A DNA stretch of 41,534 nucleotides. It comes from a virus. The stretch covers positions 1-41,534 of IMG/VR virus record IMGVR_UViG_3300050035_000540. One strand, 5' to 3'. The position numbers and the translations under genes are program-made. This document shows, in pieces, positions 18,595-39,222 of this stretch; position 1 is the stretch's first letter, and each line of letters opens with the position of its first letter. The notes beneath the pieces were generated by a model. That model was not told the origin of the DNA. It searched no databases and worked only from the letters and a program-made list of their open reading frames with translations.

Positions 18595-19764
18595 ATGAAA
18601 TATAAAACATTTAAATATAGGATATATCCAAATAATGAACAACAAGAATTAATATTAAGACATATTGGTTGTTCTCGTTGGATATATAATTATGGTTTAG
18701 AGAAAAAAATTAAATCATATCAAGAAACAGGTAAAGGATTGTCAATGTTTGATATTAAAAAAGAATTACCAATACTAAAGAAATCTGAAGATACTAAATG
18801 GTTAAAGGAAGTTAATTCTCAATCATTACAAGAATCATTGGTTCATTTAGATAAAGCATTTACTAAGTTTTTTAAAGAAAAAAAGGGATTTCCTAAATTT
18901 AAATCAAAAAAGAATAACCGTCAAACTTTTTCAATACCACAAAGTACAATAGTTAATTTTGAGAATAATACTATTGATATTCCTAAATTTAAAAAATCGA
19001 TTAAAATTATACTACACAGAAAATTCGAAGGTAAAATAAAAACATCAACAATAAACAAAACATCAACAGATAAATATTTTATATCAATTTTAGTTGAATT
19101 AAATGAAAATAATCCAATAAAAAAACCAATTTGTGAAAGTCAAGCAATTGGTATTGATTTGGGTATTAAAACATTTGCAACATTATCTAATAGTGTTGAA
19201 ATTAAAAATCCTAAATACTTACGTAAGTCACTTAATAATTTAAAAAAAGCACATCGTAAAATGAGCAAAAAAATAAACGGAAGTAATAATTATAAAAAAT
19301 CTGTTAAAAATTTAGCAATTTTACATGAAAAAGTGGCTAATAAACGTTTGGATTTCTTACATAAAACAACACATTATTTAACAACTAATTACGATACATT
19401 ATGTTTAGAAACATTAAAACCTTGTAATATGATTAAAAATCATAAGTTGGCACAAGCATTAAATGACATTGCTATTGGTAAATTTAATGAAATACTTGAT
19501 TATAAAGCTGAATGGTATGGTTGTAATGTATTAAAAATAGGTCAGTTTGAGCCAAGTAGTAAAATGTGTAGTTGTGGTGTTATAAATAAAGAATTAAAAC
19601 TAAGCGATAGGACATGGACATGTAAAAGTTGTAGTGTTACTCATGACAGGGATTTATTGGCAGCAAATAACATCAAACATTTTGCTTTTTTAAAAAATAA
19701 TACGGCAGGAACTGCCGAAATTCACGCTTATGGAGATATGAACGAGATTACTCGTTCAGCCTAA
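18595..19764 (+). CDS. tnpB: TnpB RNA-guided nuclease (IS200/IS605 family)
   Basis: A 389-residue TnpB. The N-terminal OrfB domain starts KYRIYPNNEQQELILRHIGC. The RuvC-like nuclease has its three acidic residues in GIDLGIKTFATLS (about residue 190), LCLETLKPCN (about 275) and HDRDLLAANNI (about 360). The zinc finger reads C-S-C ... C-K-S-C; the first pair has one residue between cysteines instead of the usual two. TnpB proteins cut DNA matched by an omega RNA made from the element's right end; in a phage this could favour element retention or attack competitors. All catalytic residues are present, so it may be active. Confidence 0.92.
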   Translation: MKYKTFKYRIYPNNEQQELILRHIGCSRWIYNYGLEKKIKSYQETGKGLSMFDIKKELPILKKSEDTKWLKEVNSQSLQESLVHLDKAFTKFFKEKKGFPKFKSKKNNRQTFSIPQSTIVNFENNTIDIPKFKKSIKIILHRKFEGKIKTSTINKTSTDKYFISILVELNENNPIKKPICESQAIGIDLGIKTFATLSNSVEIKNPKYLRKSLNNLKKAHRKMSKKINGSNNYKKSVKNLAILHEKVANKRLDFLHKTTHYLTTNYDTLCLETLKPCNMIKNHKLAQALNDIAIGKFNEILDYKAEWYGCNVLKIGQFEPSSKMCSCGVINKELKLSDRTWTCKSCSVTHDRDLLAANNIKHFAFLKNNTAGTAEIHAYGDMNEITRSA

Positions 19765-22916: not shown

Positions 22917-23078
22917 GGGAAAGTCATTGCTTAATTACTGAATTAAGTTACGTCTGAAAAATCAGGAATGATTTTTAAATTTTATTGCCTGTTAGTGGTT
23001 ACGTAAAATTTTTAAGACCTAACTGATTGAAATTTAAAAGGATAGTTGCACCCCAATAAAGCGGGGTGCAATTTTTTT
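22917..23078 (+). ncRNA. candidate structured small RNA
   Basis: About 160 nt between a GTATTTATA box and a strong terminator, with no coding potential. Visible stems are CTTAATT-ACTG-AATTAAG (22929-22946) and CTGA-AAAA-TCAG, before the terminator hairpin. Family unknown. It lies between the convergent-facing ends of an acidic protein gene and the aminomutase gene. Confidence 0.5.
23046..23078 (+). terminator. intrinsic terminator
   Basis: TTGCACCCC (23046-23054) pairs with GGGGTGCAA (23063-23071), followed by seven T. It overlaps the stop region of the aminomutase gene on the other strand. Confidence 0.85.
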
Positions 23079-24282
23079 ATAGGGGGTAGGAATACTCCAT
23101 GTCGAGATAGTTGGTTAATATTATTTCATTGTCTCGAATTTCTTTTACATAATTAGGTAAAAGTGGAATTTTACCACCGCCACCAGGTGCATCAATTACG
23201 TATTGCGGTACTGCATATCCACTTGTAAAGCCACGTAATCCCTTAATAATATCAAGTCCTGTCTGTATTGATGTTCTGAAGTGTAAAGAGCCGGGAATTG
23301 GGTCGCATTGATATATGTAATATGGTCTAACACGAACACTAAGCAAACCCTTATTAAGCCTTCTGAAGGTTTCTATATTATCATTAATCCCTTTCAATAA
23401 AACGCTCTGTGACCCCAATGGAATGCCTGCATCAGCCAACATGTTACATGCCAATCGAGTTTCTTCCGAAAGTTCGTCAGGATGGCTGAAATGTATACTC
23501 ATGTAAAGCGGATGATACTTCTTCAAGATATTCATCAACTCTGGAGTTATACGCATAGGCAGAACTACGGGTACTTTAGTTCCAATACGTATTATTTCTA
23601 CATGTTTTATGTTACGTAATCTATGTAATATGTATTCTATTTGGTCGTCACGTAAAGTCAAAGGGTCACCACCAGAAACAATTACATCACGAATTTCGGA
23701 ATGACTTTCAATATATTGAAAACCCAATTCCCATTGAGATTTTGTTGCGGTTATATGGTTTTCTTTTGAAACCATATGACTTCTCGTACAATACCTACAA
23801 TAAGTACTGCAAAAGTTCGTAATCAAAAATAATGCCCTGTCGAGATATCGATGAACAATATTTGGAACAGGCGAATACTTTCCTTCATCGAGAGGGTCTT
23901 CTTTCTCACCTTTAATCTGATTTAATTCACTTACCGTAGGAATAATTGTTTTATATAATGGATGGTCCGCAGATAGTGTATCCAATAAATAAACAAAATA
24001 CGGTGTTATTCTAAATGGTAAATGATTTACTGGCATATCAATAATAGTACCGTTCTTTTTCTTACTCAATACTTGTATAAGTTTTTCGGTGTTGGTAATA
24101 CTGTTTATAATTTGCCATTTCCAATCATTCCAATTTTCAAGGGTACTGCCTTTAAAATTCTCGTCAATAAAAAGTTTTAATTTAATTTTTTGAAGCAAGG
24201 ATTTACTATCCTTGCATTTCGCAGGATAATCATCACTACATTCTGATTCATTTTGAGACGGTTGTAAATTTTGTTCGTTCAT
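23077..24282 (-). CDS. kamA: lysine 2,3-aminomutase (radical SAM, PLP)
   Basis: A 401-residue enzyme converting L-lysine to L-beta-lysine with a 4Fe-4S cluster, SAM and pyridoxal phosphate. The radical SAM motif CSTYCRYC gives Cys158, Cys162 and Cys165. Residues known from the Clostridium enzyme are all in place at a near-constant offset: Arg167 after the cluster, Asp327 (YIYQCDP) and Asp364 (VIDAPGGGGK) for the substrate, and Lys371 for PLP. Length fits KamA better than the shorter EF-P-modifying EpmB. The first 30 residues are Ser/Asp/Cys-rich. A box lies 15 nt upstream. Possible roles are beta-lysine supply, modification of translation factor EF-P, or a modified nucleotide; no partner gene is visible. 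Confidence 0.9.
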   Translation of the reverse strand: MNEQNLQPSQNESECSDDYPAKCKDSKSLLQKIKLKLFIDENFKGSTLENWNDWKWQIINSITNTEKLIQVLSKKKNGTIIDMPVNHLPFRITPYFVYLLDTLSADHPLYKTIIPTVSELNQIKGEKEDPLDEGKYSPVPNIVHRYLDRALFLITNFCSTYCRYCTRSHMVSKENHITATKSQWELGFQYIESHSEIRDVIVSGGDPLTLRDDQIEYILHRLRNIKHVEIIRIGTKVPVVLPMRITPELMNILKKYHPLYMSIHFSHPDELSEETRLACNMLADAGIPLGSQSVLLKGINDNIETFRRLNKGLLSVRVRPYYIYQCDPIPGSLHFRTSIQTGLDIIKGLRGFTSGYAVPQYVIDAPGGGGKIPLLPNYVKEIRDNEIILTNYLDMEYSYPL

Positions 24283-24297
24283 CTATTTTTTGTTTAG

Positions 24298-24306
24298 TAT
24301 AAATAT
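24298..24306 (-). promoter_or_regulatory. GTATTTATA-class box
   Basis: Gene-sense ATATTTATA, 15 nt before the aminomutase ATG at 24282. The following stretch to 24411 is AT-rich with no gene seen. Confidence 0.55.
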
Positions 24307-24411
24307 AAGGAATACATAAAAAAGTCGTGCAAAATTACAATTATTTTAATAAAAAAATAACAATAAAAAAACAATAATTTTGATGTCATTATAACTTACG
24401 TCATTATAGAA

Positions 24412-24420
24412 GTATTTATA
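24412..24420 (+). promoter_or_regulatory. GTATTTATA-class box
   Basis: GTATTTATA ending 14 nt before the ATG at 24435. Confidence 0.65.
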
Positions 24421-24434
24421 TAAAATTGGCAATT

Positions 24435-24776
24435 ATGGCTAAGAAAAATACTAAACAACTGCTTTTTGAAAACATGGGAAAACTGAATCCTGAGTTTAAA
24501 ATGCAAGAAGAGCAAAATTTACAAGAACTACAACCTGTTGCAGCTACAAGCACTGCAACACAACAATATGGTCAGCAACCAGATGTTACTTATGCCGATA
24601 GTACATATAAAACTATTGCACCTGCATTAAAGCAAATCAATACTCCCGAAAAGTTTGCAGGAGCATTTAAAGGTTGGTTTCAATACTTAGGATATACACC
24701 ACAAGCAGGTAACATGACGATTCAAAGAGCAAGAATGGATGTCGAAAACGCCTTAAAAGCACTTGGCTATAGATAA
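24435..24776 (+). CDS. small head-type protein with shared N-terminal leader
   Basis: A 113-residue protein of unknown family. Its leader, KQLLFENMGKLNPEFKMQEE, ends in NLQE, an LxE site, and is nearly the same as the leader of the 32678-33019 product. The remainder is Gln/Thr-rich, then a helical C-terminal domain (IAPALKQINTPEKFAGAFKG). The ATG at 24435 is preferred over an in-frame TTG at 24426 because of the box spacing. Predicted packaged protein. Confidence 0.65.
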   Translation: MAKKNTKQLLFENMGKLNPEFKMQEEQNLQELQPVAATSTATQQYGQQPDVTYADSTYKTIAPALKQINTPEKFAGAFKGWFQYLGYTPQAGNMTIQRARMDVENALKALGYR

Positions 24777-24813
24777 AAAAATAAAAATATTTTAAAAATA
24801 AATTGATATTTGC

Positions 24814-24843
24814 TTGTATTTATAATTTTAATGCATATATTTG
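24814..24843 (+). promoter_or_regulatory. Bacteroidota-type promoter of leader 1
   Basis: A -7 box TATATTTG (24836-24843) with TTG at 24814-24816 for the -33 element. A GTATTTATA box (24816-24824) is embedded, so host and phage signals may both act here. Confidence 0.55.
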
Positions 24844-24877
24844 CAAGGATTTTGTTTTAATAAATGTTTTGAAGAAG

Positions 24878-24952
24878 ATGAAAAGATTAACAAACATACA
24901 ACCCCAACCGCAGCAACATCCACAGATGTCTGAATGGGGAAGCTATGCTTAA
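24878..24952 (+). CDS. leader peptide 1, Gln/Pro/His-rich
   Basis: A 24-codon ORF. Codons 8-16 (24899-24925) read Q-P-Q-P-Q-Q-H-P-Q, exactly the three amino acids served by the tRNAs of array 1. The codons used are CAA, CCC, CAA, CCG, CAG, CAA, CAT, CCA, CAG. The final codons (Glu-Trp-Gly) form the antiterminator arm. GAAGAAG just before the ATG may help initiation. The peptide is probably a sensor of translation rather than a functional product. Confidence 0.75.
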   Translation: MKRLTNIQPQPQQHPQMSEWGSYA

Positions 24953-24990
24953 ATCTTTTTATCAAAAAGAAGTTTTAAGGTTAGACATGA

Positions 24991-25020
24991 AACCCCATTC
25001 GCAAGGATGGGGTTTTTGTT
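24991..25020 (+). terminator. terminator hairpin of attenuator 1
   Basis: AACCCCAT/ATGGGGTT stem with 8-nt loop and a T-rich tail, ending 12 nt before the first tRNA of array 1. Confidence 0.8.
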
Positions 25021-25031
25021 TTTTGATATAT

Positions 25032-25125
25032 CGGGTAGTGAGCGAGTGGATGAAGCTGCTGGTCTTGGAAACCAGTGACGGCACAAAGGTAGTGTCGTCC
25101 GTGGGTTCGAACCCCACCCGCCCGA
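25032..25125 (+). tRNA. tRNA-Pro(TGG) with 25-nt variable arm
   Basis: Acceptor CGGGTAG/CCGCCCG (one A-C mismatch), anticodon arm CTGGT-CTTGGAA-ACCAG, and T arm GTGGG-TTCGAAC-CCCAC. The variable region holds an 8-bp stem GACGGCAC/GTGTCGTC. Anticodon TGG by 7-nt loop geometry. C1-G72 and A73 are proline features. A serine tRNA read one base out of register (GGA) is the alternative. CCA is not encoded. Confidence 0.7.
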
Positions 25126-25135
25126 AGTAGTTGAA

Positions 25136-25194
25136 GTTAAATTACCTGCACGTGGTAACTACTGCACAATCGAAAGATTGACTAAAAATTTAAC
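25136..25194 (+). ncRNA. small three-way-junction RNA in array 1
   Basis: Terminal stem GTTAAA/TTTAAC encloses TTACC-TGCACGT-GGTAA and CAATC-GAAA-GATTG. The size is under that of a tRNA and no T arm is present. Function unknown. Confidence 0.45.
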
Positions 25195-25195
25195 G

Positions 25196-25209
25196 AGTTC
25201 TTTGACATG
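25196..25209 (+). promoter_or_regulatory. boxA-like AGTTCTTTGACATG, copy 1
   Basis: The same 14-mer occurs at 34567-34580 in array 2. It resembles rRNA antitermination boxA (TGCTCTTTAACA in E. coli). Its TTTG could instead be the -33 element of the HNH gene promoter, with TATATTTA at 25226-25233. Confidence 0.45.
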
Positions 25210-25247
25210 ATACGATTAATTTTTATATATTTACAAAAAATAAATGT

Positions 25248-25757
25248 ATGAGAAATATAAAAGATGTTTTATTTGAGGCAAAAAGAAAAGGATACCATTC
25301 TGATATGAATGGCAATATATTTTCATCAAAAAAGAAAATTGCATTACGTAAATCAAATCAAAATAGATATAATTTTACTATTAGATTTTATGGTGAAAGA
25401 GTAACAATTGCCGTACACAAATTTATTGGTTATTTGAAATTCGGTGATGAAATATTTAAAGAAGGTATTGAAATAAGACATTTAGATGATAATTCATTAA
25501 ATAATTCATGGATTAACATCGGTATTGGAACACATATTGAAAACATGGGTGATATTCCAAAAGAAACAAGAATTAAAAGAGCAGTTAATGCTACTAACTA
25601 TGTTAGACGTTTTAACGATAATACAGTAAAAGAAATAATTAATGATAGAAATAATGGATTTACATATGTACAATTATGTGATAAATATAATACAAGCAAA
25701 TCTACATTAAGTTACTTTTTCAATAATGCTCAATATAGTAAAATAAAAACAGAGTAG
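25248..25757 (+). CDS. HNH homing endonuclease inside tRNA array 1
   Basis: A 169-residue HNH protein. HKFIGYLKFGDEIFKEGIEI leads to RHLDDNSLNNSWINI and GTHIENM, the core of the HNH family in which His-Leu-Asp and Asn-Asn replace the classic H-N-H spacing. Residues about 120-160 form a helix-turn-helix (VKEIINDRNNGFTYVQLCDK) that would bind DNA. Its TAG stop (25755-25757) lies within the first six bases of the next tRNA-Pro, so insertion was exact at the tRNA border. Probably a selfish gene using the conserved tRNA as target. Confidence 0.8.
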   Translation: MRNIKDVLFEAKRKGYHSDMNGNIFSSKKKIALRKSNQNRYNFTIRFYGERVTIAVHKFIGYLKFGDEIFKEGIEIRHLDDNSLNNSWINIGIGTHIENMGDIPKETRIKRAVNATNYVRRFNDNTVKEIINDRNNGFTYVQLCDKYNTSKSTLSYFFNNAQYSKIKTE

Positions 25758-25826
25758 TTGGGGAGTTGGTCACCCCGCCACATTTGGGATGTGGAGAACT
25801 CGTGAGTTCGAATCTCACCTACTCTA
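25752..25826 (+). tRNA. tRNA-Pro(TGG)
   Basis: Acceptor AGAGTAG/CTACTCT, D stem GGGG/CCCC, anticodon arm CCACA-TTTGGGA-TGTGG, T arm GTGAG-TTCGAAT-CTCAC, A73. No CCA encoded. The 5' end overlaps the HNH stop codon. Confidence 0.9.
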
Positions 25827-25828
25827 CT

Positions 25829-25904
25829 GTGCTAAGTGTAGATGTTGGCATTCTTCACCTGACTGTGAATCAGGGTTTCGTGGGTTCGATTCCCATTTAG
25901 CACC
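25829..25904 (+). tRNA. tRNA-His(GTG)
   Basis: Acceptor GTGCTAA/TTAGCAC, anticodon arm CCTGA-CTGTGAA-TCAGG, T arm GTGGG-TTCGATT-CCCAT, C73. The base before position 1 is T rather than the usual G(-1). No CCA after the discriminator. Confidence 0.88.
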
Positions 25905-25991
25905 AAAATATCGTTTAAAAATACGATAATTTAAAAATATCGTGTGTAGATAGCATAATTAGTATTTATGCATTGAAAATACGATAATTTT

Positions 25992-26068
25992 CGGGGTGTA
26001 GTTCAGTTGGTTAGAATGGGTGCTTTGGGAGCATCAGGTCGCAAATTCGAGTTTTGCCATCCCGACCA
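25992..26068 (+). tRNA. tRNA-Pro(TGG), CCA encoded
   Basis: Acceptor CGGGGTG/CATCCCG with A73 and CCA, anticodon arm GGTGC-TTTGGGA-GCATC, T arm GCAAA-TTCGAGT-TTTGC. Carries the same anticodon as the tRNA at 25752 but a different body. Confidence 0.92.
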
Positions 26069-26071
26069 TAT

Positions 26072-26148
26072 GGTGAGCGTAGTTCAGTTGGTAGAACACC
26101 AGATTGTGGTTCTGGTAGTCGCAAGTTCAAATCTTGTCGCTCACCCCA
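26072..26148 (+). tRNA. tRNA-His(GTG), CCA encoded
   Basis: G(-1), acceptor GTGAGCG/CGCTCAC, C73 then CCA. Anticodon arm CCAGA-TTGTGGT-TCTGG. Carries the standard histidine G(-1):C73 pair. Confidence 0.92.
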
Positions 26149-26189
26149 AATCGGCAATAAATTAATAAAATTGCCAAAAATGTGATATT

Positions 26190-26330
26190 ATGAAAAAGGG
26201 TAACAAACAAAATGCCTTCCTTAATGGCGAATGGGCAGCACACATGCGTAAATGGGGTAAATCTTTCACCGCCAAAATACGCAGAACTGTTGACAAAAGG
26301 GTTATTAGGGAAGAACTTAAAAATACATGA
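26190..26330 (+). CDS. 46-residue basic protein within array 1
   Basis: A short ORF between tRNAs encoding a strongly basic protein (MRKWGKSFTAKIRRTVDKR) of unknown family. A GGCAAT/ATTGCC hairpin (26153-26175) precedes it and an AAAGTC/GACTTT hairpin follows. Composition suits RNA or DNA binding; whether it is translated is unproven. Confidence 0.5.
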   Translation: MKKGNKQNAFLNGEWAAHMRKWGKSFTAKIRRTVDKRVIREELKNT

Positions 26331-26376
26331 TAAAATAAAGTCTGACTTTAAATTATCACGTATATAAGTGATATAT

Positions 26377-26449
26377 TGTCTCGTGGTGTAATGGTTAACA
26401 TGTTTGACTCTGAATCAAAAGAGTGCAGGTCCGACTCCTGCTGAGACAA
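26377..26449 (+). tRNA. tRNA-Gln(CTG)
   Basis: Acceptor TGTCTCG/TGAGACA, anticodon arm TTTGA-CTCTGAA-TCAAA, T arm GCAGG-TCCGACT-CCTGC, A73. No CCA. Confidence 0.9.
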
Positions 26450-26453
26450 CAAA

Positions 26454-26541
26454 AGTGATGAACATAAAAAACCTGGTAATCCAGTGCCGTGGGTTTAAAA
26501 GATATCTAATCAACCCACACGGTTAGAGCACCTGCATCACT
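26454..26541 (+). ncRNA. tRNA-sized structured RNA of unknown class
   Basis: Terminal 7-bp stem AGTGATG/CATCACT spans the gap between two tRNAs. Inside are CTGG-TAAT-CCAG and a long hairpin CCG-TGGGTT / AACCCA-(CA)-CGG. There is no TTCRA T loop or 7-nt anticodon loop. The piece GGTTAGAGCACC looks like a tRNA D arm, hinting at a tRNA origin. Confidence 0.5.
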
Positions 26542-26547
26542 CAATAT

Positions 26548-26630
26548 AGTCCTTTGGCAGAATGGTCATTGCATCAGTCTTTGAAGCTGACACCCCAACG
26601 GGTTTGTAAGTTCGAATCTTACAGGGACTA
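26548..26630 (+). tRNA. tRNA-Gln(TTG) with 15-nt variable arm
   Basis: Acceptor AGTCCTT/AGGGACT, anticodon arm TCAGT-CTTTGAA-GCTGA, T arm GTAAG-TTCGAAT-CTTAC, A73. The variable region contains CCC/GGG. The D arm GGCAGAATGGTCATTGC resembles serine tRNAs, but the loop at positions 34-36 reads TTG, not TGA. Confidence 0.68.
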
Positions 26631-26640
26631 CTAAATGTTC

Positions 26641-26670
26641 TTTGAATTGTCGTATTTATTATTATCTTTG
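26641..26670 (+). promoter_or_regulatory. Bacteroidota-type promoter
   Basis: TTTG (26641-26644), 18 nt, TATCTTTG (26663-26670); directs the last tRNA-Gln of array 1. A GTATTTATT box is embedded at 26652-26660. Confidence 0.7.
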
Positions 26671-26678
26671 CAAAACAT

Positions 26679-26751
26679 TGACCTTTGGTGTAATTGGTTA
26701 ACACATCTGATTTTGATTCAGGCGAGTGTAGGTTCGAGTCCTACAAGGTCA
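26679..26751 (+). tRNA. tRNA-Gln(TTG)
   Basis: Acceptor TGACCTT/AAGGTCA, anticodon arm TCTGA-TTTTGAT-TCAGG, 5-nt variable loop, T arm GTAGG-TTCGAGT-CCTAC, A73. Its 3' half is overlapped on the other strand by an HNH ORF. Confidence 0.9.
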
Positions 26752-27227
26752 ACTTTTTTACGACAACGACAATGTGTCGGTAATGTTGAATTACAGTTAG
26801 GACATAAAATTCGTAAGTTTTCTAAACGATGGTCCGAATTACGACCATTTATATGGTCAAGTATCAGACTCATGTGTTCCCCGTGCCAATTTTCGTCTTG
26901 TCCACATTTTTCACAAATTCGTTCTTTTAATCCTTCTTCATACAAACGATTTTTAATATTACCCACATTTGTATATGTTGACCCCGACACTAATATTTTA
27001 CTTGTAAGAAATCTTCGAGAATCATTTAATTTACTGTTTGTTCTTGAATATCTTTCCACATCAGTTTCAAAATGAGAAATATTAATGTTATATAGTTTTA
27101 CGTATTTTTTTAATATCGGTCTTGAATTGCCTTTAATACCCAACCCCATTTTTTGTAAAACTTCAGTGTAATTCTTTGAACATTTAACTATGGGTTCGAA
27201 ATTTTCCTTTAAATATTTTGCTTTCAT
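26718..27227 (-). CDS. HNH homing endonuclease, C-terminally truncated
   Basis: A 169-residue HNH protein close to the 34750 and 36184 products: GLKERICEKCGQDENWHGEH, then LILDHINGRNSDHRLENLR and CPNC give the zinc-bound beta-beta-alpha core. The two relatives continue into a helix-turn-helix (TGKKYGVSDN-type), which is missing here. The reading frame instead runs into the opposite strand of tRNA-Gln(TTG) and ends VGLEPTLA, a translation of the tRNA's T arm. It is therefore truncated at the tRNA and may bind DNA less specifically. Confidence 0.78.
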   Translation of the reverse strand: MKAKYLKENFEPIVKCSKNYTEVLQKMGLGIKGNSRPILKKYVKLYNINISHFETDVERYSRTNSKLNDSRRFLTSKILVSGSTYTNVGNIKNRLYEEGLKERICEKCGQDENWHGEHMSLILDHINGRNSDHRLENLRILCPNCNSTLPTHCRCRKKVDLVGLEPTLA

Positions 27228-33088: not shown

Positions 33089-34129
33089 ATGAAAAAAATA
33101 TTATTTATACTAAAAAAAAGATTCTATGGCAATACTAATGTTAAATCATATGGTTTAATAAACTCATCAACACATATTGCCAATTTTTTGAATGTATTAA
33201 AAGGTATTGAAACAAAAGTAGTTACAGTTATCGATGCCAATGGTATTGATAAAGAAGTTCATGGATACAAACCAGATATTGTTGTTATTGAGGCATTATG
33301 GATTACTGGTGAAAAACTAAAGGAACTCATCAAAATTAATAAATATAAAAACATTAAATGGGTTATTAGAATACATAGTGATATTGGATATTTAAGTGCA
33401 GAAACATTAGCATTAAAATATGTAAATGATTACATAGCATTAAATAGACCAAACCTATTCATAGCACCAAATAACAAAATTTTCACTAAATATCTTTCAA
33501 ATGCAATGGGGTATGATTTCACATACCTACCAAATGTCATCACAATTAATCATGAAAAAAATAATAATCATGAAGAACATAATTCAAATATTATAAATAT
33601 TGGATGCTTTGGTGCACTAAGATTATTGAAAAATCCTGTATTTCAAGCATTATGTGCAATCAAGGCAGCAGATATTCTTGGCAAAACATTACATTTTCAC
33701 GTCACTTTAGCAAAAATAGACGGATATGATGATGAGCATCAAATTAAATTAAATCCGGTTTTAAAAAATCTTGAAGAATTATTTGCTAATAGCCGTCACG
33801 TACTTGTAAAACACGAATGGAAAGAAAATAAAGAATTTCAACATTTAATTAAAAAAATGGATATTGGTATGCAATTATCATTTAGTGAAAGTTTTAATAT
33901 TGTTACTGCTGATTTTATAAATAATAATAAGTTAATTCTTGTTAGCGAAGCAATTGAATGGATGCCAAGAATATTTAAAACATCAACAATTGATTATAAT
34001 GATGTTACAGGAAAAATAATTTTTATGTATGAATATCGACACTCGTGTATATTAAAAAAATTAATGCATAGAAGTTTAAATAATTATAATGAAAAAGCCA
34101 AAAAAATGTGGCTTGATTTTATTTATTAA
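33089..34129 (+). CDS. putative GT-B glycosyltransferase
   Basis: A 346-residue protein that reads like a two-Rossmann (GT-B) glycosyltransferase. The N-terminal half starts KKILFILKKRFYGNTN and has PDIVVIEALWI and IKWVIRIHSD strands. A linker with APNNK and YLPNVI follows, and the C-terminal half begins NIGCFGALRLLKNP. The usual sugar-nucleotide segment is represented by DIGMQLSFSESFNIVTADF, with Glu in the expected SESF region. Target unknown: DNA bases, virion proteins or host surface are all known for phages. It is a late gene by its box. Confidence 0.65.
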   Translation: MKKILFILKKRFYGNTNVKSYGLINSSTHIANFLNVLKGIETKVVTVIDANGIDKEVHGYKPDIVVIEALWITGEKLKELIKINKYKNIKWVIRIHSDIGYLSAETLALKYVNDYIALNRPNLFIAPNNKIFTKYLSNAMGYDFTYLPNVITINHEKNNNHEEHNSNIINIGCFGALRLLKNPVFQALCAIKAADILGKTLHFHVTLAKIDGYDDEHQIKLNPVLKNLEELFANSRHVLVKHEWKENKEFQHLIKKMDIGMQLSFSESFNIVTADFINNNKLILVSEAIEWMPRIFKTSTIDYNDVTGKIIFMYEYRHSCILKKLMHRSLNNYNEKAKKMWLDFIY

Positions 34130-34159: not shown

Positions 34160-34189
34160 TTTGGAATTAAGAAAACTTTACTATCTTTG
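34160..34189 (+). promoter_or_regulatory. Bacteroidota-type promoter of leader 2
   Basis: TTTG (34160-34163), 18 nt, TATCTTTG (34182-34189). Near-consensus for the -33/-7 promoters of Bacteroidota; start of transcription expected near 34196. Confidence 0.75.
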
Positions 34190-34234
34190 CCAAGTATTTA
34201 AATGAAAGAAACAACAAATTTAAAAGAAACAACA

Positions 34235-34327
34235 ATGAAAAAATTATTCGACATATTGATGGCAGTCCTCATGGTGGATGTCCTATTATGGGCAGCCGAA
34301 GAGGATAAGCTATGTACAGTCGGGTAA
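34235..34327 (+). CDS. leader peptide 2, Leu/Trp/Glu/Asp run
   Basis: A 30-codon ORF; an in-frame ATG at 34202 would add eleven residues including four Thr. Codons 17-24 (34283-34306) read L-L-W-A-A-E-E-D using CTA, TTA, TGG, GCA, GCC, GAA, GAG, GAT. Array 2 encodes Leu(TAA), Trp(CCA), Glu(TTC), Glu(CTC) and Asp(GTC), the matching set. The final codons ACA-GTC-GGG-TAA form the antiterminator arm. Probably a translation sensor. Confidence 0.75.
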   Translation: MKKLFDILMAVLMVDVLLWAAEEDKLCTVG

Positions 34328-34362
34328 TACTTTGATATTACAACCTCCTTTCTTTAATAAAG

Positions 34363-34400
34363 AAACCCGACTGTCGCAAAATGGTCGGGTTTTTTGTTTT
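34363..34400 (+). terminator. terminator hairpin of attenuator 2
   Basis: AAACCCGAC/GTCGGGTTT with 12-nt loop and T-run. Confidence 0.85.
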
Positions 34401-34590: not shown

Positions 34591-34677
34591 GGTCTCAGGA
34601 GCTGCTTGGCGTGGCTGCCGGACTGTCACTCCGGAACGGATAATACCGACAGGTGGGTTCGAATCCCATTGGGACCG
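34591..34677 (+). tRNA. tRNA-Asp(GTC) with 18-nt variable arm
   Basis: Acceptor GGTCTCA/TGGGACC, D stem AGCT/GGCT, anticodon arm CCGGA-CTGTCAC-TCCGG, T arm GTGGG-TTCGAAT-CCCAT, G73. The variable region AACGGATAATACCGACAG holds a CGG/CCG stem. Loop and discriminator equal those of the normal tRNA-Asp at 35379. Confidence 0.7.
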
Positions 34678-34682
34678 CAATG

Positions 34683-34714
34683 TTTGATTATATGATAATT
34701 ATTGTTTATCTTTG
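34683..34714 (+). promoter_or_regulatory. Bacteroidota-type promoter
   Basis: TTTG (34683-34686), 20 nt, TATCTTTG (34707-34714), followed by a GTATTTATA box (34727-34735) 14 nt before the HNH ATG at 34750. Confidence 0.7.
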
Positions 34715-34749
34715 CCGAACTATCACGTATTTATATAAAACACTTTGCT

Positions 34750-35388
34750 ATGGACATAGATAAATTAAAAGCAATTATTGCAGAATCAAATAGCACTACC
34801 GAAACATGCTTTAAATTATATGGTAATAAATTATACGGTAATAGAATAACAATAAAAAAATATATTAATCAACATAATATTGATATATCACATTTCGGAA
34901 CAAATAACGGAAATGTTCGTTCAAATAAATTTATTAAAACACCACTATCAAAAATATTAATATCTGGCTCAACATACAATACGACAAATTTAAAAGAAAG
35001 ATTGTATGATGAAGGAATAAAAGAACGTAAATGTGAGTTATGTGGACAAGATGAAAATTGGCATGGTGAACACATGAGTTTAATTCTTGACCATATTAAT
35101 GGGATAAATAATGACCATAGACTTGAAAATTTGAGAATTGTTTGTCCTAATTGTAACGCAACCTTACCAACATTTAGTGGAAAAAATGTAAAACGAAATA
35201 AAAAAAAGAAAATTACACGTTTAGAACAATCTGTTATTCAACGTAAAGTTAAACGTCCATCATTCGAACAACTTCAAAATGAAATAAAAGAATTGGGATT
35301 TACTGGAACTGGAAAAAAATATGGTGTAAGTGACAATGCAATAAGAAAATGGATTAAATTTTATAATAAACATACAATACTCTCGTAG
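34750..35388 (+). CDS. HNH homing endonuclease inside tRNA array 2
   Basis: A 212-residue HNH protein. N-terminal helical region (TETCFKLYGNKLYGNRITIK, NIDISHF), central zinc/HNH core (RKCELCGQDENWHGEH, LILDHINGINNDHRLENLR, CPNCNATLP), C-terminal helix-turn-helix (GTGKKYGVSDNAIRKWIKFY). The ATG at 34750 fits the box; the frame from 34702 starts inside the promoter. The TAG stop (35386-35388) falls within the first ten bases of tRNA-Asp(GTC), so the gene is inserted flush against the tRNA. Confidence 0.85.
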   Translation: MDIDKLKAIIAESNSTTETCFKLYGNKLYGNRITIKKYINQHNIDISHFGTNNGNVRSNKFIKTPLSKILISGSTYNTTNLKERLYDEGIKERKCELCGQDENWHGEHMSLILDHINGINNDHRLENLRIVCPNCNATLPTFSGKNVKRNKKKKITRLEQSVIQRKVKRPSFEQLQNEIKELGFTGTGKKYGVSDNAIRKWIKFYNKHTILS

Positions 35389-35453
35389 GCTTCTTGGTGA
35401 AGAACTTGGCTGTCACCCATGTAAAATAGAGGTTTCGAATACCTCCGGGAGTG
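35379..35453 (+). tRNA. tRNA-Asp(GTC)
   Basis: Acceptor ACTCTCG/CGGGAGT, anticodon arm CTTGG-CTGTCAC-CCATG (one T-T mismatch), 7-nt variable loop, T arm GAGGT-TTCGAAT-ACCTC, G73. Confidence 0.85.
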
Positions 35454-35461
35454 CAATCTCA

Positions 35462-35534
35462 ACCGAATGAAAGTAGGTTACTGGTGAATACTGGCTCGTA
35501 TGTCAGCTACCGATTCGAGTCGAATCAGTCGGTG
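35462..35534 (+). tRNA. degenerate tRNA-like element, possibly Thr(CGT)
   Basis: Acceptor-like ACCGAAT/AGTCGGT (one mismatch) and D-like AGTA/TACT. The anticodon region CTGG-CTCGTATG-TCAG has an 8-nt loop, and the T region GATTCGA-G-TCGAATC folds as a plain hairpin. It may be a decayed tRNA or another structured RNA. Confidence 0.3.
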
Positions 35535-35565
35535 CTCGGTGCAAAAAACAGTTCGGAGATTATAT

Positions 35566-35646
35566 GCAGCGTTATACAAACGGCTAAAGTAGGCAGACCT
35601 TCAATCTGTCCCGAAAGGTTCGGGGGTTCGAATCCCCCACGCTGTA
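35566..35646 (+). tRNA. tRNA-Glu(TTC) with 12-nt variable arm
   Basis: Acceptor GCAGCGT/ACGCTGT, D stem TAC/GTA, anticodon arm GCAGA-CCTTCAA-TCTGT, T arm GGGGG-TTCGAAT-CCCCC, A73. The variable region can form CCGAA-AGG-TTCGG. Position 33 is C instead of the universal U. Confidence 0.6.
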
Positions 35647-35649
35647 CGC

Positions 35650-35777
35650 TAAATATCTTAGGTAAACGTGATAGAAAGTATGTTAGAATAGGGCAATGTC
35701 GGATACCGACAGAGTGCCGCCTGGCTCCCCATCAGGACTTCAGAAGATAATTAACTTCACCGCAGAATAGATATTTA
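35650..35777 (+). ncRNA. structured RNA between two tRNA-Glu genes
   Basis: Terminal stem TAAATATCT/AGATATTTA exactly fills the gap between tRNAs ending at 35646 and starting at 35781. Inside, GGCA/TGCC encloses GTCGG-ATA-CCGAC, next to CCTGG-CTCCCCA-TCAGG, which looks like an anticodon arm for Gly(CCC). No T arm follows. Confidence 0.5.
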
Positions 35778-35780
35778 CAC

Positions 35781-35852
35781 GCTCGGTTCTTCTAACGGTA
35801 AGGAAAATAGACTCTCAATCTATGAATGCGGTTTCGACTACCGCACCGAGTA
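35781..35852 (+). tRNA. tRNA-Glu(CTC)
   Basis: Acceptor GCTCGGT/ACCGAGT, anticodon arm ATAGA-CTCTCAA-TCTAT, T arm GCGGT-TTCGACT-ACCGC, A73. Confidence 0.88.
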
Positions 35853-35857
35853 CAAAC

Positions 35858-35932
35858 TTTCCCATCGTCTAATTGGTTCAGGACATCACCCTTTCACGGT
35901 GGGGATTATGGGTTCGAGTCCCGCCATCTGCA
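35858..35932 (+). pseudogene. tRNA-Glu(TTC)-like, acceptor stem unpaired
   Basis: The inside matches a bacterial tRNA-Glu: TCGTCTAATTGGTTCAGGAC, then an anticodon arm with loop CTTTCAC and a TTCGAGT T loop. The 5' end TTTCCCA cannot pair with the 3' end CATCTGC and the T stem is weak. Probably a recombined pseudogene. Confidence 0.6.
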
Positions 35933-36183: not shown

Positions 36184-36921
36184 ATGAAATATAATAAAGA
36201 AGTTTTAACACGATTTGTAAAAGAAAGTAATTCAATTGCTAATGTGCTTAAATTACTTAAATTGAAACCTGCAGGTGGAAACTATAAAACAATATTAAAA
36301 AAATTCAATGAATATAATATTGATACATCGCATTTTTTGGGAATGGGATGGAATAAAAATAAAAAACTGCATCAAAAATACAGCAAAGAAGAATTTATTA
36401 AAAAATTCTTAGTTGTTAATTCCACATATACTAATACACATAGATTAAAACTAAAATTGTTTGAATTTGGATTAAAAGAAAGAAAGTGTGAAAAATGTGG
36501 TCAGAGTGAAATTTGGTTTGGAGAAAAATTAAGTCTGCATTTAGACCACATTAATGGCATTAATAATGATTATCGTTTAGAAAATTTAAAAGTGTTGTGT
36601 CCAAATTGTCATTCACAGACATCCACATATTGTGGAAAAAATGTTGATAAGAAAAAATATAAAAAACATGAAAACATTAATTATTGTTCATGTGGTGCTC
36701 AGATAAAAAATAATAGTACTAAATGTCAAAAATGCCATCATGAAAATTTACGTAAGGTTAAATCACGACCAACATATGGTGAACTAATTAATAATATTAC
36801 TTTTTCTGGTGGATATACTGCAACAGGAAAAAAATATGGCGTTTCGGATAATACAATACGTAAATGGCTTAAATTCTATGAAAAACAAATTAACACATCG
36901 GTAGTTCAGTTGGTAGAATAG
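36184..36921 (+). CDS. HNH homing endonuclease overlapping tRNA-Trp
   Basis: A 245-residue relative of the 34750 product with the same order: helical N-terminus (NIDTSHF), HNH core (RKCEKCGQSEIWFGEK, LDHINGINNDYRLENLK, CPNCHSQ), an extra four-Cys zinc knuckle (NYCSCGAQ, KCQKCHHE) and a helix-turn-helix (ATGKKYGVSDNTIRKWLKFY). The first HNH His is replaced in GEKLS, where relatives have GEHMS. The last nine codons lie inside tRNA-Trp, which supplies the ending TSVVQLVE, the deepest gene-tRNA overlap in the window. Confidence 0.85.
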   Translation: MKYNKEVLTRFVKESNSIANVLKLLKLKPAGGNYKTILKKFNEYNIDTSHFLGMGWNKNKKLHQKYSKEEFIKKFLVVNSTYTNTHRLKLKLFEFGLKERKCEKCGQSEIWFGEKLSLHLDHINGINNDYRLENLKVLCPNCHSQTSTYCGKNVDKKKYKKHENINYCSCGAQIKNNSTKCQKCHHENLRKVKSRPTYGELINNITFSGGYTATGKKYGVSDNTIRKWLKFYEKQINTSVVQLVE

Positions 36922-36967
36922 TGCTCTCCAAAAGCAAAGGTCGGGAGTTCGAGCCTCTCCCGGTGTG
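36895..36967 (+). tRNA. tRNA-Trp(CCA)
   Basis: Acceptor ACATCGG/CCGGTGT, anticodon arm GTGCT-CTCCAAA-AGCAA (outer pair mismatched), T arm GGGAG-TTCGAGC-CTCTC, G73. Confidence 0.85.
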
Positions 36968-36976
36968 CAATAAAAT

Positions 36977-37048
36977 ACGTCTGTCGTCTAATGGCTAAGA
37001 TAACGGCTCCCAAACCCGTGGATGAGGTTTCGATTACTTCCAGACGTG
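36977..37048 (+). tRNA. tRNA with expanded anticodon loop, Trp(CCA) or Gly(CCC)
   Basis: Acceptor ACGTCTG/CAGACGT, D stem GTCT/AGAT, T arm GAGGT-TTCGATT-ACTTC, G73. The anticodon stem is ACGG/CCGT with nine unpaired bases CTCCCAAAC. Read from T33 the anticodon is CCC; by centred geometry it is CCA. A1-U72 and G73 favour Trp. Confidence 0.7.
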
Positions 37049-37053
37049 CAAAA

Positions 37054-37189
37054 TGAAGTGATAGTAAAAATCGCAGGTATGTACTGCAGGTTGGCGTTCA
37101 GTCCAAATGAACTAAGAGCACAACGACCACTGAGGGCAGATTTATCTGTGCCTAAGAGCAATATCAGTTAGCAGTACACTACCACTTCA
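37054..37189 (+). ncRNA. 136-nt multi-hairpin RNA closing array 2
   Basis: Outer stem TGAAGTGATAGT / ACTACCACTTCA (one G-T type change), second stem TGTACTGC/GCAGTACA, and inner hairpins GTTCA-GTCCAAA-TGAAC and CAGAT-TT-ATCTG. No coding frame and no tRNA arms. Comparable in setting to stable RNAs C and D in the T4 tRNA cluster. Confidence 0.55.
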
Positions 37190-37553: not shown

Positions 37554-38279
37554 ATGTATATAATTGCAAAAAGAAAAGATTATTATGATGGCGTTGCAGG
37601 TACAACTGGTATAGATAAAACCATTGTATATGAGCGAGAAACTCAAGAATTCGAAAAAGACGATATTCCTGTGCTCTTTGAAAGACATAGAGGATATTGG
37701 GGTTTAAGCCGAGCAAAAACACCTTTTCATGCAATGCATTATCATAATATGAAAAAAGAATTTCGAAACATTTGCAATCATCATTCGTATTTTATCTTAG
37801 GTTTTTGTGGAAAATTGTACATTGGTTGGAAACTCTACAGGGTAATAAATTCAGATGAAGAAGTCAGTACAGAATATACTTATGACACAGAATACATGCT
37901 GAATATTCTTGAAGAAAAAAGTTGGGAAGGTAATATATCAGACAGTGTTAAATATGTTCAATCATATAATGCAATGCAAATATTCAGAGACCTTAAGAGT
38001 CCTGCATTTGTTTATGACAGTGATTATGGAAGAACGCATTATTTCAGAAGAAAAAATAATGACCAATATTCAAAATTTATTATTAATCCACTTTTAAAAG
38101 ACTTTCAGTTTTACAAAGTCTTTGATGCAGTACAAGCATTTCAAGAAGTTTCGATGTTCATGGGTGGAGTACTTGGCAGGGGTGAAAAGGAAATCGTGGA
38201 AGTAGCAGACAAATATAAGATTACACAACACGGATTTGATAAATGGTCATTCAGAAAAGAACCAGAAAAAAGTAAATAA
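37554..38279 (+). CDS. conserved phage protein of unknown function
   Basis: A 241-residue soluble protein. YIIAKRKDYYDGVAGTTGID at the N-terminus and TQHGFDKWSFRKEP at the C-terminus are signatures I associate with a widespread family of large-phage hypothetical proteins; its role is not known. The centre has Tyr/His-rich strands (HAMHYHNMKKEF, ILGFCGKLYIGWKLYRV). It starts a unit with the 38281 and 38537 genes, separated by 1 nt and then overlapping. Confidence 0.7.
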   Translation: MYIIAKRKDYYDGVAGTTGIDKTIVYERETQEFEKDDIPVLFERHRGYWGLSRAKTPFHAMHYHNMKKEFRNICNHHSYFILGFCGKLYIGWKLYRVINSDEEVSTEYTYDTEYMLNILEEKSWEGNISDSVKYVQSYNAMQIFRDLKSPAFVYDSDYGRTHYFRRKNNDQYSKFIINPLLKDFQFYKVFDAVQAFQEVSMFMGGVLGRGEKEIVEVADKYKITQHGFDKWSFRKEPEKSK

Positions 38280-38844: not shown

Positions 38845-39194
38845 GGGGCAGCCTGGTTTTGACAGCGTGGCAGAGTGGTATAGTAAGCAAGTGGTAGTTG
38901 AATCAGACTACGTTAAAAAGGTTCAAAACAACAAACGCAGAAGACATAATGTCTATTCCAACTTCTCTTACGAGAGGTAATGCAGTATTCGCAAGAAACG
39001 CTGAACTCGCAATCGCAGCATAAGGAAACAAAAAACTCAGCAAAGAACCTTCCGGCTTAAGGAAGCAAAAGACAAGACGGATTGTTGATGTTCCGCAAAC
39101 ATCAGATATTTCGCTGAATTAGAAAATTCAGATAAACTTGTAGAAAACGTATTAGTCGCATGACTGGACAAGGGTTCAACTCCCTTCTGCTCCA
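38845..39194 (+). ncRNA. ssrA: transfer-messenger RNA
   Basis: Complete 350-nt tmRNA. The tRNA-like ends pair as GGGGCAG/CTGCTCC with T arm AAGGG-TTCAACT-CCCTT and A73; GGGGCAGCCTGGTTTTGACA is the classic tmRNA 5' end. The tag frame most likely resumes at GCA 38990 and reads ARNAELAIAA then TAA (39020-39022), ending in AA like known degradation tags. CCA is not encoded. It would rescue stalled ribosomes with a phage-chosen tag. Confidence 0.93.
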
Positions 39195-39222
39195 CTTCCA
39201 CAAACTTTTCCGCACTTCCACA

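Follow-up and report, generated by a model that had tools for sequence, protein, structure and literature searches.

Leader-peptide attenuators predicted in front of phage tRNA operons, each probably switched on when ribosomes run short of the encoded tRNAs

Introduction

Ribosome-mediated transcription attenuators of the trp, his and leu type precede bacterial amino-acid operons (compare PMC1183508), and leader-peptide attenuators of such operons sense charging. The phage units described here resemble them in having a leader ORF with regulatory codons, 1:2, 2:3 and 3:4 stems, and an intrinsic terminator before the regulated genes. The targets of the bacterial attenuators are biosynthetic enzymes, whereas those of the phage units are phage tRNA genes. 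The phage leaders also differ in that a single leader may combine codons for eight or even more amino acids, in agreement with the tRNAs that its operon encodes, the amino acids are divided among several operons, and the codon choice extends in part to the isoacceptor. The uORF attenuator of E. coli topAI-yjhQ likewise uses a short ORF to sense stalled ribosomes, but its target is a toxin-antitoxin locus and its trigger is antibiotics (PMC12121999).

Defences that cleave tRNAs, and their relief by phage tRNAs, are reported elsewhere (PMC10264068, PMC11555353, PMC12409363). In these reports, as in the present proposal, tRNAs lost by the host are replaced from the phage genome. Their subject is the tRNAs as such, and the main text of PMC10264068 nowhere uses the strings 'attenuat', 'leader' or 'terminator'. 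The same three strings are absent from the main text of PMC7162821, according to which phages of >634 kb (Mahaphages) and Lak phages form one clade with predicted Bacteroidetes hosts. Searches of open-access papers turned up no description of tRNA genes, phage or bacterial, under the control of leader-peptide attenuation.

Architecture of the predicted attenuator in front of tRNA array 2

The window, which is the whole stretch of DNA analysed, comes from a large phage; this IMG/VR record of 41.5 kb has terminase and portal matches, two tRNA arrays and one tmRNA. Upstream of array 2 (34160-34400), a promoter is followed by a leader ORF of 30 codons, then by an antiterminator of 10 bp with which a terminator overlaps, and finally by the tRNA genes:

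34160..34189, + strand: promoter of Bacteroidota type, TTTG at 34160-34163 and TATCTTTG at 34182-34189, identified from the Bacteroidota consensus
34235..34327, + strand: leader ORF of array 2, 30 codons, reading MKKLFDILMAVLMVDVLLWAAEEDKLCTVG and then stop
34243..34252, + strand: region 1, ATTATTCGAC, pairing with GTCGGGTAAT in RNAfold (1:2 stem)
34283..34306, + strand: sensor codons CTA TTA TGG GCA GCC GAA GAG GAT (LLWAAEED)
34316..34325, + strand: region 2, ACAGTCGGGT, antiterminator strand formed by the last codons of the leader ORF, covarying with region 3
34365..34374, + strand: region 3, ACCCGACTGT, common to the antiterminator and the terminator (its 5' arm)
34360..34395, + strand: intrinsic terminator hairpin with U-run (3:4), -17.9 to -18.3 kcal/mol

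An in-frame ATG at 34202, upstream of 34235, is also a possible start, and a homologous ORF is present in all 19 A2-type leaders collected. Of 26 leaders, 12 (6/6 of the window group) have the promoter motif TA..TTTG in the 110 nt preceding them, as against 10.4% of random positions. Region 2 and region 3 form a duplex of 10 bp with an energy of -20.2 kcal/mol, and (A)CTCGAC of region 1 is kept in alignment A3. The 1:2, 2:3 and 3:4 alternatives predicted here are the four-region anatomy of a textbook attenuator. The exact triple of a word, its reverse complement and the same word again, followed by a T-run, occurs once in the window, at this attenuator, and in none of 40 Markov-resampled windows. 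The initial annotation had placed an attenuator at 34160-34400, and the ORF, the duplex and the fold bear out its 10-bp antiterminator, the overlap with the terminator and the codon run; the residues L-L-W-A-A-E-E-D were read correctly, except that the codon of the first Leu is CTA and not TTA. A conserved CTCCTTTCTT-(A/T)AA...AAGAAA element, perhaps a pause hairpin or a protein site, lies between regions 2 and 3 of A2 leaders (window 34340-34365; alignment A4).

The tRNA genes of array 2 are the following:

34591..34678, + strand: tRNA-Asp(GUC), ARAGORN
35379..35454, + strand: tRNA-Asp(GUC), ARAGORN
35566..35647, + strand: tRNA-Glu(UUC), ARAGORN
35781..35853, + strand: tRNA-Glu(CUC), ARAGORN
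35860..35932, + strand, ends approximate: tRNA-Glu(UUC)-like gene missed by ARAGORN, 86% identity over 64 nt to the tRNA-Glu of L007
36010..36084, + strand: tRNA-Leu(UAA), ARAGORN
36895..36968, + strand: tRNA-Trp(CCA), ARAGORN
36977..37049, + strand: second tRNA-Trp(CCA)-type gene, RF00005 44.3 bits, 96% identity to the tRNA-Trp(CCA) of L057

The Leu(TAA), Trp(CCA), Glu(TTC), Glu(CTC) and Asp(GTC) genes listed for the array in the initial annotation are correct, and two further genes are added here. The tRNA-Glu(UUC)-like gene at 35860-35932 gives a partial RF00005 match of 28.5 bits, just below the cut-off of 29. Four Val and three Ala codons of the leader are without a matching tRNA in the window, in array 2 of which no Val or Ala tRNA was found, split or intron-bearing forms included. 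Relatives with a near-identical A2 leader (e.g. L051) carry both; the A2 arrays of L046, L049, L051 and L052 add Val, Ala and more Leu tRNAs, and L006 also has Ala. The tRNAs of the relatives account for the Val and Ala codons of the window leader, among them the Ala codons previously regarded as unmatched. The match of the array 2 leader alone is modest (12/29 codons, binomial P = 0.014; 19/29, P = 2.5e-4 with the amino-acid set of the family), and the strength of the codon-match case therefore comes from array 1 (9/23, P = 1.1e-4) and from the relatives.

Both tRNA arrays contain HNH endonuclease genes (window 25248-25757, 34702-35388 and 36184-36921), which look like homing endonucleases spreading in tRNA arrays, since several DNA-similarity matches to phages fall on such genes. 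Degenerate or interrupted tRNA-like stretches, uncalled by ARAGORN and Rfam, can be recognised by eye between the tRNAs at window 35455-35545, 35640-35760 and 37050-37180.

The same arrangement precedes array 1:

24836..24843, + strand: promoter -7 element, TATATTTG
24878..24952, + strand: leader ORF of array 1, MKRLTNIQPQPQQHPQMSEWGSYA
24932..24939, + strand: region 2, GAATGGGG
24983..25021, + strand: terminator, with region 3 CCCCATTC at 24993-25000
25031..26753, + strand: tRNA array 1 by ARAGORN, Pro(UGG) x3, His(GUG) x2, Gln(CUG) and Gln(UUG) x2

The architecture common to the two arrays had been recognised from the window, and the leader ORF, region 2 and terminator before the Pro/His/Gln tRNAs agree with it.

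Relatives of the window and covariation of the alternative stems

Homology to the protein encoded at window 37554-38279 identified L003, 99.99% identical in DNA over 8446 bases, and L004-L006, with 53-58% protein identity; the neighbouring protein (33089-34129) has no homologue in annotated phages. Both leaders are kept in L005 and L006. Array 1 of L006 begins with tRNA-Arg(ACG), and its leader reads GRPQQHPQ with a CGC codon, unique at that place among 33 A1 leaders. Two structure-only patterns, composed of region 2, region 3, region 4 and their spacing, with the codons of the sensor stretch excluded, were searched against 2.9 million IMG/VR viral contigs. They matched 38 (A1) and 12 (A2) stretches, 29 and 9 after deduplication, and a leader ORF and a downstream tRNA array are present in 29/29 and 9/9 of these. 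The first tRNA is Pro in 28 of the 29 A1 matches and Arg in the remaining one, L006; it is Asp in all nine A2 matches. The A1 pattern gave no match in GTDB genome contigs, and thus no binned host genome carrying it was found. From the phage structural genes and the promoter motif, we infer that the window group consists of huge phages with hosts in the phylum Bacteroidota.

In total, 33 A1, 19 A2, 7 A3 and 8 A4 leaders of the window group were collected. Leader codons without a matching tRNA were found for His in L016, L025, L030 and L031. A joint loss of the His codon and tRNA-His in G004 (L061) was considered and rejected: the central His codon is replaced by Gln, but a His codon remains at position 6.

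The covariation alignment (A4) comprises 16 of the 19 A2 leaders; in the three left out (L009, L026, L127) the ORF runs past region 2. Nine of the 16 match the search pattern, in which the cores of the two stems and the preceding CA are prescribed but the bases beyond are free. Changes on both sides occur at 6 of 12 antiterminator pairs, in 13 such cells, a score reached by none of 500 shuffles, which ignore relatedness, and exceeding every slide of 1-3 columns. Four of the six covarying pairs use region-3 bases on the hairpin loop side, outside the seven-pair terminator stem, where the covarying partner is region 2 (window ACA/TGT, L042 GGA/TCC, L054 GTTCA/TGAAC). The terminator is paired in 100% of cells, with both-side changes at 2 of 7 pairs. 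Regions 2 and 4 of L131 have GTCGAGA in place of GTCGGGT, and its region 3 has TCTCGAC in place of ACCCGAC. L074, an A1 leader identified through its peptide sequence, reads AACGGGG / CCCCGTT / CGGGG. When partners of regions 2 and 3 were swapped among leaders, the native pairing was equalled in 0/5000 swaps for A2 (27/5000 for the ten leaders outside the search pattern) and 8/5000 for A4. The swap gives no signal for A1 (3597/5000) and A3 (1060/5000), because their stems hardly vary. The 1:2 stem is present in the folds, and its partner swap is clear only in A1 (12/3000; A2 996/3000, not significant; A3 108/3000; A4 124/3000). Both alternative stems thus covary, the outcome by which the initial annotation had proposed to check its attenuator.

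Leader codons follow the tRNAs of their own arrays

The 364.7-kb contig G001 has most of its tRNA genes in four arrays, each with its own leader:

Pro/His/Gln array: leader IHPQPQQHPQ
Asp/Glu/Val/Leu/Ala/Trp array: leader VLDILVAETLVALLWAVDED
Tyr/Lys array: leader TYYYGKKSYK
Cys/Asn/Ile/Ser/Phe/Gly/Thr/Arg array: leader TTVSSRTISISTSISRNGNSIFCSNFGGRSRN

The amino acids are partitioned otherwise in the huge phages LR756501 (735 kb), LR756504 (636 kb) and LR756502 (642 kb), with 5, 6 and 7 attenuator units, respectively, and the leaders track the partition. The terminase of the window is ~30% identical to those of the three phages, which are thus distantly related to it. Examples from these genomes are:

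five Leu tRNAs: leader MNNILHINLLNSLCLLGIKLIG
Ile/Cys/Asp/Asn/Tyr array: leader MVRKYNDYCIND
Arg/Thr/Val/Ala/Gly/Pro array: leader TPAPAVAFRRGTGTGTGTCVPAG
Glu/Ala/Ile/Val/Gly array: leader NIAIVEIAVIGGAEEGV
Leu/Ser/Cys array: leader ILSLCLSLSLSL
four tRNA-Gln: leader MTTSFQQQQQQQINRTD, with QQQQQQQ

Two arrays of LR756502 contain second attenuators inside them (L096 5709-5790 and L098 6980-7046), with an additional leader for the Ile/Gly/Ala tRNAs in one case and a poly-Gln leader before four tRNA-Gln genes in the other. These internal leaders are nested behind a first leader that holds the same codons too.

The human gut phages Lak-C1 and Lak-A1 have two leader-terminator-array units each, with weaker antiterminators (L119, L136, L118, L137). 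One array supplies His/Pro/Arg/Gly/Cys/Met and the other most of the rest; the two leaders are not separated by a simple score (0.51 vs 0.61).

Leaders were assigned to arrays by permutation, scored as the fraction of leader residues in the amino-acid set of the array, with the best candidate ORF allowed for observed and permuted assignments alike. For 22 hand-picked attenuators of four genomes, with coding-gene candidates lacking a tRNA match omitted and tRNA-free genome regions outside the scope, the true assignment was the sole best permutation under both array rules (G001 1/24, LR756501 1/120, LR756504 1/720, LR756502 1/5040). The product of the four results is ~1e-10 if they are independent, to be read with the homologous sequences being non-independent and the leaders having been found partly by a detector that requires an antiterminator. 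A longest-ORF rule of the detector chose wrong frames in L006, L038 and L068, and hence the best candidate was taken in the permutations or every ORF was kept.

Position and frame were compared in 26 leaders (two of the window, four of G001, 18 of the three huge phages and two of Lak-A1). Codons matching the array make up 258/347 of those within 45 nt before region 2, 68/156 farther upstream, and 55/240 at or after region 2. Such clustering would be expected if stalling has to leave region 2 uncovered. Read in frame, the leaders match at a mean of 0.498, versus 0.227 and 0.186 in the other two frames. The agreement between leader codons and array tRNAs first noticed in the window thus extends well beyond it.

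The match partly reaches the level of the isoacceptor. In 24 leaders, the two of the window left out, array anticodons can read 77 of 123 informative codons, where 59.7 are expected from long-ORF codon usage (2/5000 simulations). The Ile codon is ATA in 11 of 15 cases before arrays with only tRNA-Ile(UAU) and in 1 of 11 before arrays with only tRNA-Ile(GAU) (P = 0.0016). As far as the sequences tell, synonymous choice appears to follow the isoacceptor in part: none of the seven Ser codons of the Trp/His/Phe/Lys/Ser leader of LR756501 is readable by the sole Ser tRNA found, Ser(CGA), and Gly and Val leader codons often fall outside simple wobble rules.

The detector was also applied to the control phages LR756508, LR756511, Xanthomonas phage XacN1 and T4, where it gave seven ORF candidates at six places; six resemble chance and are mostly within coding genes. 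No attenuator-array unit was found in T4, XacN1 or LR756511. The seventh candidate, L105 (4477-4570 of LR756508 476001-484177), combines a leader rich in Leu and Asn, LPLINILNANLALANNNPISL, with a strong terminator 666 bases upstream of tRNA-Leu(GAG) and tRNA-Asn, with 7 of 13 codons before region 2 matching; it may be a real attenuator, the lone one in LR756508. Tenacibaculum phage PTm1, Flavobacterium phage immuto and Microcystis phage Mel-JY01 were uninformative, having few tRNAs (0, 3 and 1). If all candidate ORFs are retained without selection, the array match in the 45 nt preceding region 2 is 254/419 codons in attenuator phages and 16/84 in controls, L105 included. In the window and the pieces analysed of G001, LR756501, LR756504 and LR756502, exact triple sites give 12 rows, two G001 sites being counted twice as loci overlap; 11 of the 12 lie within 900 nt upstream of a tRNA, the exception being L095:11690. 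None occurs in 498 kb of strand from LR756508, LR756511 and XacN1.

These results bear on the reading that the leader is just a small gene with a conventional terminator, that its codons agree with the array by chance or through local codon bias, and that the arrays are transcribed from promoters of their own. Terminators and small ORFs are common in phages, and the array 2 leader of the window, considered alone, gives only P = 0.014. The uniquely best permutation in 4/4 genomes, the dependence of the match on position and frame, the difference between attenuator phages and controls, and antiterminator covariation at bases outside the terminator stem make this highly improbable.

Proposed mechanism of control

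It is very probable, judged from sequence, that a ribosome-controlled transcription attenuator governs the phage tRNA operon; stem covariation and the match of codons to arrays far beyond the window support this interpretation, which the initial annotation had put forward. The phage units have, as trp/his-type attenuators do, a leader ORF upstream of a terminator, cognate codons, and exclusive, covarying 2:3 and 3:4 stems (A2; by partner swap A2 and A4). The regulated genes are tRNA genes instead of the biosynthesis, transport or charging genes that are usual, if not strictly defining, for that type.

From the order of the elements, the exclusive stems, the codon enrichment upstream of the antiterminator strand, the re-matching of leaders across arrays and lineages, and the covariation, we infer leader translation, the direction of control and the trigger as follows. 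With an ample supply of all tRNAs that the array encodes, translation would proceed to the leader stop codon and the ribosome would cover region 2; the 3:4 terminator would then form and keep array expression largely off. A shortage of any of these tRNAs would stall the ribosome upstream, masking region 1 and leaving region 2 free. The 2:3 stem could then form, RNA polymerase would read through, and the entire array would be made. In an untranslated leader, the 1:2 stem would keep the terminator on. Each operon would thereby act as an OR-gate over the codons it supplies, and the arrays together as a codon-addressed feedback on tRNA supply, with each set probably switched on when ribosomes run short of it. 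The trigger would be the loss or scarcity of particular tRNAs, caused by a tRNA-cleaving defence of the host or by codon demand beyond the host tRNAs; perhaps the feedback is directed against tRNA-cleaving defences.

Control of the opposite sense, in which rapid translation would prevent termination and a stalled ribosome would silence the array, is conceivable because ribosomes close behind RNA polymerase can suppress terminators. However, region 2 is at the end of the ORF, and a finishing ribosome would therefore cover it and favour 3:4, whereas the sensor codons are just upstream, where a stall leaves region 2 free. Feedback of that sign would also starve the phage of a tRNA already lacking, and we regard it as improbable.

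The same attenuator could instead respond to amino-acid starvation through uncharged tRNA, as in trp/his, so that the arrays would be a general response to poor charging. Stalling cannot distinguish a missing from an uncharged tRNA, although we judge this reading unlikely. More tRNA does not relieve an amino-acid shortage; the multi-amino-acid leaders track operon content and not pathways; and the charging of one amino acid does not require isoacceptor-wise codons such as ATA before tRNA-Ile(UAU) and ATT/ATC before tRNA-Ile(GAU). Because these operons yield tRNA rather than amino acids, we favour loss or scarcity of tRNA as the most probable trigger.

A T-box-like riboswitch in the leader, sensing uncharged tRNA directly by binding it, would also link tRNA to a terminator. 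T-box riboswitches exert tRNA-responsive control of terminators upstream of translation-related genes, as the phage units are proposed to do. The window has no T-box match at Rfam gathering thresholds, and neither a T-box nor any other known RNA family was found in the leader region; the signal is in reading-frame codons, many per leader. Such a riboswitch has practically no chance of being the explanation, and sensing by ribosome stalling is proposed in its place.

Taken more broadly, we lean towards the view that giant Bacteroidota phages possess a codon-addressed emergency tRNA service, in which several operons have leaders that poll their own codons down to the isoacceptor and any shortage releases the set, and which would be the first case known to us of leader-peptide attenuation controlling tRNA genes. 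The component parts are known; the novelty lies in the target, in the carrier and in the use of multi-codon logic. If true, the phage answers tRNA-cleaving immunity or codon scarcity only where the damage sits, and a textbook bacterial mechanism would be extended to tRNA genes and viruses, combining OR-logic over many codons with a resolution down to the isoacceptor. For decades it has been asked why phages have tRNA genes. The leaders would tell codon by codon what the phage monitors, and simple reporters could then test the competing answers, namely codon compensation, the replacement of cleaved host tRNAs and amino-acid stress. The leaders would also be ready-made sensors for the loss of individual tRNAs. 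The layout in Lak gut phages brings the system within reach of work on Prevotella and Bacteroides, a possible route to tests near cultured Prevotella.

Additional features of the leaders and genomes

Leader peptides often start with MKNLxNI or similar, even before unrelated sensor stretches (A1, A2, LR756501, LR756504, LR756502). The start region of A1 can pair with bases around the stop codon (native versus swapped 12/3000), and this pairing may hide the start codon after one round.

A complete tmRNA gene is located just 3' of array 2 (window 38845-39195) and is also present in the relatives L004-L005 and G001. A Leu/Met tRNA cluster recurs 3' of the tmRNA (L003 10484-11281, L005 13459-14388, L054 13639-14785), for which no leader-terminator unit was found in the group. 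The large terminase gene is whole in G001 and G003 and in two pieces ~1.6 kb apart in G002 (225215-228902) and G010 (23418-27121), where the split is probably due to an intron or inserted element. Two further genes of the window, at 18595-19764 and 23077-24282, encode a protein of TnpB/IS605 type and a radical-SAM protein whose C-terminal domain is that of a lysine-2,3-aminomutase.
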